From positions 1,984,001 to 2,048,000 of the forward strand of contig NZ_CP067089.2 in assembly GCF_016616095.2 (NCBI RefSeq): a stretch of 64,000 nucleotides of DNA, read 5' to 3'. Origin of the DNA: Breznakiella homolactica (GTDB lineage: Bacteria; Spirochaetota; Spirochaetia; Treponematales; Breznakiellaceae). Positions within the stretch are counted from its first letter, which is position 1, and each line of letters opens with the position of its first letter. The position numbers and the translations under genes were made by a program. A model generated the notes under the pieces. It had not been told where the DNA came from and searched no databases. It saw only the letters and a program-made list of their open reading frames with translations. This document shows positions 12,939-14,986 of this stretch, one piece after another.

Positions 12939-14285
12939 TTATGAGGGAACGCTCTCCAGGTACGTCCGGACCGAATCCGCTATGGTTTTGTATATCCAGC
13001 GGCGTTTTTCGTCGTCATGCTCCAGGAGGGTGAACCGGAATCCCGGAAGTTCGCTGGCGAACCCCGAGAGAGGCACCACGCAGATGCCGGTGGAAGCCAG
13101 AAGCCAATAGACGAACCGTTTGTCCGGCGCAACATCGGCGGTTTTTTCGCGGATAAAGTCCGCAAGGGACGGGTCCGACACCGGAAGGGACCGGTTGATG
13201 GAATTGCCGTCATGGAGTACGGCGGCATCGAATATGGCAGTCGCGTAAAGGGCGCCCCGGGGCTTCACCAGGGATATACCATTGGTATCCGCAAACGCCG
13301 TATAGGCTTCCTCCGCCCGTTTTTCGAACATCGCCGCCCGGCGGGTAAGATGCTCGGGGTACCGGGCGTCGCCCATGATGGCCGGGATACAGAGCTGGGG
13401 AAGGCTGGTGGAACAGACCTCCAGGCGTTTGGCGTCCACGAGGCTCTGGATGTACGTGTCGAACCAGGGATCCGCCTTGCGGTTGTACACTTCGATCCAT
13501 CCGCACCGGGCGCCGGGCCAGGGGACTTCCTTTGAGATTGACCTGAGGGAAAGCCCCGGAACGTCGCCGATTACCTGGGAAAGGGCCGCGGTTTCGGCGC
13601 CGCCGTACACAATATTGGCGTATGTTTCGTCGCAGACAATAAAAAGGCCGTAGGTCCGGGCGATCCGGACGAATTCCCTGAGAACCTCCACGGGGTAGAC
13701 CGCCCCGGTGGGATTATCCGGGTTGATGAGGAGTATTCCGGCGATGGAGTCGTTGTACCGGACCTTAAGTTCCACATCGGCCATATCGGGCATCCAGGAC
13801 CGTTCCGGGTCGAGGCGGTAGGTCAGGTGCTCGTAGCCCGAATGGGCCGCTTCGGCGGAGGAAAGGGTTGAATACGCCGGGGACGGCCCGAGCACCCGCG
13901 CCTCACGCCGGAGAAACCCGAAGACCTTGGCCACCGCGTCGCCGAGGCCGTTGAAAAACAGGATATCCCCGGCGTTGATCAGCGCGGGATCGGGATCCCC
14001 GGGACCGCCGATCTTTTTCCGCTGGTTTGCCTTTTCGGCCAGGAAATCCCGGGATTCCCGGGCGCCTTCGGTTTCGGAATACGCGTAGGAAAGGTCCTCC
14101 GCGGCCTTCTGCATGACGATATCCTTGATCCACTGGTCCACGGGCTCGCCCTTTTTAACGGGGTCACCGATATTTTCCCACTGGATAGGGATATTCCACT
14201 TTGACAGTTCCCGGGCAAAGGCCACGATTTCCCGGATTTCGTACTTGAGCTTGCCGGCTCCCGGATGAACAATATTTCTTCTCAT
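12939..14285 (-). CDS. PLP-dependent class I aminotransferase
   Basis: A 448-residue fold-type I aminotransferase. Visible are the substrate-side NPDNPTGAVYP, the cofactor-binding DETYANIVY and the Schiff-base lysine motif SISKEVPWPGARCG, plus a C-terminal Arg in GFRFTLLE. I chose the ATG at 14285 because GGAG stands 8 bases before it and because the attenuator terminator lies between an earlier possible start (14393) and the promoter. The substrate is not certain from sequence. The upstream leader peptide with five Ala codons, flanked by Ile and Leu codons, suggests that it makes alanine or a branched-chain amino acid. It is a single-gene unit ended by its own terminator. Confidence 0.9.
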   Translation of the reverse strand: MRRNIVHPGAGKLKYEIREIVAFARELSKWNIPIQWENIGDPVKKGEPVDQWIKDIVMQKAAEDLSYAYSETEGARESRDFLAEKANQRKKIGGPGDPDPALINAGDILFFNGLGDAVAKVFGFLRREARVLGPSPAYSTLSSAEAAHSGYEHLTYRLDPERSWMPDMADVELKVRYNDSIAGILLINPDNPTGAVYPVEVLREFVRIARTYGLFIVCDETYANIVYGGAETAALSQVIGDVPGLSLRSISKEVPWPGARCGWIEVYNRKADPWFDTYIQSLVDAKRLEVCSTSLPQLCIPAIMGDARYPEHLTRRAAMFEKRAEEAYTAFADTNGISLVKPRGALYATAIFDAAVLHDGNSINRSLPVSDPSLADFIREKTADVAPDKRFVYWLLASTGICVVPLSGFASELPGFRFTLLEHDDEKRRWIYKTIADSVRTYLESVPS

Positions 14286-14393: not shown

Positions 14394-14429
14394 AAAAAAG
14401 GCCGTAATCCTCTCAGGAGGATCACGGCC
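14394..14429 (-). terminator. Attenuator terminator of the aminotransferase leader
   Basis: On the minus strand a 13-bp stem with one G-U pair (GGCCGTGATCCTC, loop, GAGGATTACGGCC) is followed directly by T6, which makes it a strong intrinsic terminator inside the leader, about 110 bases before the aminotransferase ATG. Its 5' arm contains GATCCTCC, the exact complement of GGAGGATC in the leader-peptide coding region, so the two structures are mutually exclusive. Confidence 0.88.
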
Positions 14430-14451
14430 CGATCATCTTTATCGTGAACGG

Positions 14452-14526
14452 CTAAACGCGATCCTCCCGGATAGCGGCCGCTGCTGCAAGAATGGTTTCT
14501 GTCATGGACACAAATTCAACATTCAT
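14452..14526 (-). CDS. Leader peptide with five consecutive alanine codons
   Basis: A 24-codon reading frame: MNVEFVSMTETIL, then five Ala codons (GCA GCA GCG GCC GCT), then IREDRV and TAG. There is no Shine-Dalgarno sequence; the predicted transcription start falls on the A of the ATG, so the message may be leaderless. The segment complementary to the terminator's 5' arm (14460-14467) is codons 20-23. A ribosome stalled at the Ala codons would leave it free to form the antiterminator, and a ribosome reaching the stop would cover it. This is the layout of classical amino-acid attenuation; I infer response to alanyl-tRNA charging. Confidence 0.8.
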   Translation of the reverse strand: MNVEFVSMTETILAAAAAIREDRV

Positions 14527-14532
14527 ACAATA

Positions 14533-14561
14533 AGTATGCCAGGGTTTTCCGCGCGTGTCAA
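14533..14561 (-). promoter_or_regulatory. Sigma-70-type promoter of the aminotransferase transcript
   Basis: On the minus strand TTGACA (14556-14561), a 17-base spacer and CATACT (14533-14538). The expected start is 6-7 bases downstream, at or next to 14526, the first base of the leader ATG. Confidence 0.78.
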
Positions 14562-14749: not shown

Positions 14750-14915
14750 TAGATTTTTTAGTGATTATCCCGCTGACGGCCGATCTTTTTTATTCATATT
14801 TTAAGGAAAATAATGAATGGGCCGTTGCTGCCGCTACGTGTTTTTTCCTGCACTAAGCTTTACTATTAGTCGGATAATCACAGCATCAACGCGGTAAGCA
14901 TGATGCTGTTTTTTT
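14750..14915 (+). ncRNA. Putative structured RNA (leader element or small RNA)
   Basis: About 165 bases between a promoter and an intrinsic terminator, without a convincing reading frame. The outer arms GTGATTATCC (14761-14770) and GGATAATCAC (14872-14881) close a domain. Inside, ACGGCC/GGCCGT form a second helix capped by an AT-rich helix (ATTCATATTTT with AAAAT-A-ATGAAT around an AAGG loop). A terminator follows immediately after the closing arm and shares its last base. The receiver gene begins 72 bases after the terminator, so this is either a riboswitch-like leader of that gene or an independent small RNA. I could not match it to a known class such as c-di-GMP-I or cobalamin riboswitches. 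Confidence 0.6.
14881..14915 (+). terminator. Intrinsic terminator after the structured RNA
   Basis: CAGCATCA (14881-14888), 12-base loop, TGATGCTG (14901-14908) and T7. Its first base is the last base of the closing helix, so the helix and the terminator compete only marginally. Confidence 0.82.
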
Positions 14916-14986
14916 ATGAACCACCGGCCGTTGCTGAGGCCGGGCGCCCCCGCATCATTCCCGGATTCCGCGTTGGAAGGGGAATT

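Follow-up and report, generated by a model that had tools for sequence, protein, structure and literature searches.

Classical trp, his, leu, thr, phe and ilv attenuators combine a leader peptide containing a run of the sensed residue with three alternative RNA helices and an intrinsic terminator located before the structural gene. The same combination was found in the window, the 64,000-nucleotide stretch of the Breznakiella homolactica genome analysed here, with the differences that alanine is the predicted sensed residue, that the element resides in a member of the Spirochaetota, that it precedes a single aminotransferase gene and that its leader start is predicted to be leaderless. In Firmicutes, Ala-specific T-box leaders also let the charging of the alanine tRNA control a terminator, but the T-box RNA binds the tRNA itself and operates without a leader peptide. 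Another related system is the whiB7/wblC upstream ORF, which was reportedly addressed by Poulton in 2024 and whose control of termination is linked to alanine starvation by a title; unlike a direct attenuator of an alanine enzyme, it controls a transcription factor and integrates many signals. Passages from two papers likewise link alanine starvation to the mycobacterial whiB7 upstream ORF (PMC13236596, PMC11550727), and aspC, an alanine biosynthesis gene, belongs to the WhiB7 programme (PMC13236596). With respect to the leaderless start, the S. meliloti trpL transcript starts with the leader ATG (PMC7298713), and the mycobacterial polycysteine short ORFs are leaderless Cys leaders according to the citing text (Canestrari 2020, cited in PMC9031893). 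Both share with the present locus an AUG-initial transcript, which is a prediction here, and an ORF with a run of the sensed residue, but they contain Trp or Cys instead of Ala, occur in other phyla and are unrelated in sequence. The literature search yielded no account of an attenuator that senses Ala directly and specifically, which is weak evidence since subscription papers were mostly outside the coverage of the search. If the reading presented below is true, alanine joins the amino acids that are sensed through direct leader-peptide attenuation, and the mechanism reaches the spirochaetes in a form whose leaderless start is conserved.

All elements of the architecture proposed in the initial annotation were located on the minus strand of the window sequence, upstream of a gene encoding a class I/II PLP aminotransferase of the PRK06855 family (12939..14285; NF005334, PF00155), which is the putative regulated gene. 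The sigma-70-type promoter TTGACA-N17-CATACT (14533..14561) is present as claimed, with the -35 hexamer at 14561-14556, the -10 hexamer at 14538-14533, a spacer of 17 nt, 10 of 12 consensus matches and a TGn motif ahead of the -10 hexamer. Only the six bases TATTGT lie between CATACT and the ATG at position 14526 of the leader ORF (14452..14526), which specifies the 24-residue peptide MNVEFVSMTETILAAAAAIREDRV and ends with the TAG stop codon at 14454-14452. The five consecutive Ala codons GCA GCA GCG GCC GCT (14473..14487) represent codons 14-18 of the leader and constitute the predicted stall site.

The minus-strand RNA can be divided into four segments. Segment 1 (CCGCTATCC, 14469..14477) overlaps Ala codons 4-5 and provides the 5' arm of a protector hairpin (1:2), the 3' arm of which is segment 2 (GGAGGATCGCG, 14457..14467). 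According to pairing statistics and fold simulation, segment 2 additionally serves as 5' arm of the antiterminator (2:3), while segment 3 (GGGCCGTGATCCTCC, 14416..14430) acts as antiterminator 3' arm and as terminator 5' arm, and segment 4 (GAGGATTACGGCC(T) plus the T6 run, 14394..14412) forms the terminator 3' arm (3:4). The complement of the terminator 5' arm that had been pointed out in leader codons 20-23 is indeed located there as GGAGGATC, and the antiterminator joins GGAGGATCGCGG with CCGTGATCCTCC. The protector is a third helix that was absent from the initial annotation and connects leader codons 17-20 with codons 21-24 by pairing CCGC-T-ATCC with GGAT-C-GCGG. A terminator of 13 bp with a T6 run had been proposed; the terminator and the T6 run (14399-14394, right after the stem) were recovered, but the terminator scan extended the stem to 14 pairs (14430-14399), the outermost of which is a G-U pair. 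The distance from the T6 run to the aminotransferase ATG at 14285 is about 100 nt. The three helices share segments, the antiterminator and the terminator are mutually exclusive, and folding of the leader RNA yielded z = -3.4. A search against Rfam returned no gathering-level match in the whole window and none credible in the leader region, and the locus is accordingly not assigned to the T-box riboswitches or to another Rfam leader family.

A comparative search upstream of orthologous genes, as suggested by the initial annotation, recovered the Ala run and the terminator directly before the gene in 11 non-redundant spirochaete orthologues, the window included, but the element is absent from seven other close orthologues (L036, L037, L038, L008, L010, L011 and L012). 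Its conservation is therefore patchy. The 11 loci, hereafter the close set, are L006 (the window), L009, L039, L041, L042, L017, L018, L043, L021, L022 and L023, with protein identities of 57-81% to the aminotransferase of the window; L040 is near-identical to L039, and L013, located at a contig edge, retains the terminator. Throughout the close set the leader carries four (L023) or five consecutive Ala codons, and the codons of the five-Ala leaders vary synonymously only, at the third position. The length of 24 codons is kept in ten of the 11 leaders (23 in L043), with an amino-acid identity of 11% over codons 2-11, the first half, and of 81% over the last twelve codons. This fixed length along with the diverged first half suggests that it is important how far the stall site lies from the 5' end. 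Arg, Gln, Leu or Pro is encoded at the protector loop, an indication that the constraint at this position acts on the RNA and not on the peptide.

The promoter region is conserved as well, since TTGAC(A/C/G) occurs in the equivalent position of all orthologues with the element. The leader ATG follows the -10 hexamer at a distance of 6 nt in eight orthologues, 7 nt in two and 8 nt in one, and no consistent Shine-Dalgarno sequence precedes it across the 11 close-set orthologues, which together predict a transcript whose 5' end coincides with the leader AUG or is immediately adjacent to it. A GGAGG motif was considered as an internal Shine-Dalgarno sequence and rejected, as no start codon follows at a usable distance. 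The leaderless start inferred at the outset thus appears to be conserved in view of the short spacing in all 11 orthologues, whereas its designation as an oddity does not hold given the precedents of S. meliloti trpL and the mycobacterial Cys leaders.

In alignment A1, the two partners can pair in 95.8% of the cells of helix 1:2, in 93.8% of those of helix 2:3 and in 95.0% of those of helix 3:4. Sliding the partners by 1-3 columns reduced these values to 31-57% overall and to 33-53% for helix 2:3, and the antiterminator pairing is thus kept among the orthologues. Two pairs of the terminator are altered on both sides. The covariation score of the close set, in which few pairs are altered on both sides, did not exceed the column-shuffle control; this measure is uninformative here because the sequences are too alike and most columns hardly vary. 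Between the leader stop and the terminator (14431-14451, minus strand), a small hairpin of differing sequence is seemingly kept in the orthologues, for instance CTGATA/TATCAG in L018 and L021 and CTGTT/AACAG in L043, and may extend the antiterminator.

The aligned sequences, with their conserved parts, Ala codons and pairing and the spacing between -10 hexamer and ATG, argue for a ribosome-mediated transcription attenuator that very probably senses charged tRNA-Ala and controls the PRK06855-family aminotransferase. Transcription would start on the leader AUG or immediately beside it, with a ribosome translating the leaderless leader. Under a shortage of Ala-tRNA, the ribosome would stall on the early Ala codons and cover segment 1, allowing segment 2 (GGAGGATCGCG) to pair with segment 3 (CGTGATCCTCC) and RNA polymerase to read through. 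When Ala-tRNA is ample, the ribosome would reach the stop codon and cover segment 2, leaving segment 3 to pair with segment 4, and transcription would terminate at the T6 run. When translation does not occur, the 1:2 protector may favour termination in some of the orthologues.

This switch was simulated with a ribosome footprint assumed to span 13 nt, counted from the first base of the A-site codon. When Ala codons 1-3 occupied the A site, segment 3 in the leaders of the close set was paired upstream with values of 0.67-1.0 before the terminator 3' arm exists, and a ribosome positioned on the stop codon favoured the terminator in every case simulated. Stalling at Ala codons 1-3 favoured the antiterminator also at equilibrium, most clearly in L009, L039, L017, L018 and L021, whereas in L041, L042, L043, L022 and L023 switching is confined to the kinetic, pre-terminator reading. 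The window leader is a softer switch than the clearest cases, with equilibrium antiterminator probabilities of 0.47-0.62 for stalling at Ala codons 1-2, 0.17 at Ala codon 3 and 0.00 at the stop codon. Hardly any switching was detected in L044 and L128, two more distant versions described below.

The orthologues lacking the element bear on a different explanation, namely that the promoter and the intrinsic terminator yield an ordinary short transcript, or the source of a small RNA, and that the gene is served by another promoter without conditional readthrough. In L036, L037 and L008, a TTGACA motif together with the -10-like sequence CATAAA precedes the aminotransferase ATG by about 10 nt, and the whole leader therefore seems to be missing. 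A promoter-like TTGACA so close to the gene would suit this explanation, as would the use of terminated attenuator RNAs as small RNAs, exemplified by S. meliloti rnTrpL (PMC7298713). It leaves unexplained, however, the conserved Ala codons and the fixed leader length as well as the complementarity of segment 2 to the terminator arm, which persists with changed sequences in distant lineages, and is regarded as very improbable compared with attenuation by a translating ribosome.

Each part of the element is common on its own, and a GC-rich repeat, a promoter-like match and a terminator might have come together by chance. Runs of five GCN codons occur 166 times on each strand of the 4.65-Mb single-contig genome, and within the region, promoter-like and terminator-like matches are about as numerous as expected from shuffling. 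Without mismatches, the core motif occurs once in the genome; the single match with three mismatches was read as coding DNA. A detector was constructed with three requirements: a short ORF in which at least four consecutive codons specify the same amino acid, an intrinsic terminator no more than 140 nt away and an antiterminator complement of 7 or more, with G-U pairs counted half. Its application to 113 non-redundant regions upstream of PRK06855 orthologues resulted in 15 matches for Ala, one for Leu and none for any other amino acid. No match was obtained in 60 dinucleotide-shuffled sets of these 113 regions, and across 1.49 Mb, comprising both strands of all examined loci and the window, every match was located upstream of a PRK06855 orthologue; one of the latter matches (L076), about 430 nt upstream, is less certain. 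The folding score of z = -3.4 and the absence of the full architecture from all 60 shuffled sets place the combination far beyond chance. The comparative data, including conservation over 11 orthologues, refute a fortuitous assembly, to which we attach virtually no probability.

Since the detector was designed after the sequences had been seen and the close set is not independent, better evidence is provided by the far set, in which six of 94 regions were matched, all of them with Ala. These six matches have other arm sequences that again form complementary pairs and are located before orthologues with 51-62% identity; four originate from other spirochaete groups or families (L044, L128, L136 and L065) and two from Desulfuromonadales (L106 and L107). 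Complementary arms are, for example, ACTGTGGTT and AACCACAGT in L065 and CTGTCCAT and ATGGACAG in L107. A leaderless start seems to apply to L044, L128 and L136; in the Desulfuromonadales, a Shine-Dalgarno sequence precedes the leader ORF, and the same may hold for L065. The weakest far-set case is L128, the element of which is the same as that of L047, as the terminator chosen by the detector is far from the leader; the pair ACTGCGGT/ACCGCAGT, closer to the leader, also fits. A search of 393 genomes of the phylum with the covariance model R1 returned, apart from true orthologues, weak matches in G324, G192, G214 and G342, which were judged to be generic terminators; the match in G466 turned out to be a genuine attenuator before the PRK06855 orthologue. 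These independent versions, with other arms before the same gene elsewhere, lend support to the Ala-specific attenuator before an aminotransferase that had been postulated at the outset, in addition to the Ala run, leader length, antiterminator and terminator kept in the close orthologues. We consider it fairly likely that Ala-specific attenuation is a recurrent partner of PRK06855 across phyla, in the sense of several spirochaete families and the Desulfuromonadales, with the RNA arms being replaced and the Ala run being kept.

The distant versions also help to judge whether translation of the leader might sense a broader signal, such as a general slowdown, an antibiotic or nascent-peptide arrest, with the Ala run as a by-product. 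The actinomycete whiB7/wblC leader responds to antibiotics and to amino-acid starvation (PMC11550727), and the C-terminal leader sequence AIxEDRG is conserved like the Ala run. The conserved tail is nevertheless explained by the RNA pairing, with its unpaired position varying among R, Q, L and P, and the distant versions have unrelated tails but retain the Ala run. As the Ala run is the protein feature common to all versions and the target resembles AlaA, a broader signal appears unlikely, and sensing of charged tRNA-Ala is preferred.

The functional prediction for the gene is based on a match to NCBIfam NF005334 (PRK06855) with 618 bits against a cut-off of 443, on a second NCBIfam match to an alanine aminotransferase family, and on E. 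coli AlaA (4cvq, E 6e-32) and the putative transaminase 1xi9 as best solved relatives. The alanine dehydrogenase domain AlaDh_PNT_N had no match in the genome, and the next-best relative of the aminotransferase within the genome is weak (E about 2e-12). Accordingly, no better candidate for alanine synthesis by pyruvate transamination emerged from the genome than this gene, and the encoded enzyme is probably an alanine transaminase, as judged from its sequence relatives. A recurrent association with Ala-specific attenuation would mark PRK06855 as a main alanine-forming transaminase. The Ala run predicts alanine synthesis and thereby offers a clue to the function of a large group of aminotransferases named only by fold. 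Several genomes bearing PRK06855 (for example G000, G038, G079 and G001) have no second AlaA-like aminotransferase, with the next match at about 1e-11 to 1e-13, and most relatives without a PRK06855 gene have an AlaA-like aminotransferase at 1e-23 to 1e-33, which hints that one enzyme replaces the other. A plasmid search gave no match.

A further strongly structured leader (z = -3.9) was observed on the plus strand of the window at 14760-14915, before a response-regulator gene with a likely ATG near 14986. It had no Rfam match and no DNA match among 89 other genomes of the family. This riboswitch-like leader consists of a branched fold enclosed by the helix GTGATTATCC/GGATAATCAC and ends in a terminator-like hairpin, GCATCA..TGATGC, with a T7 run.
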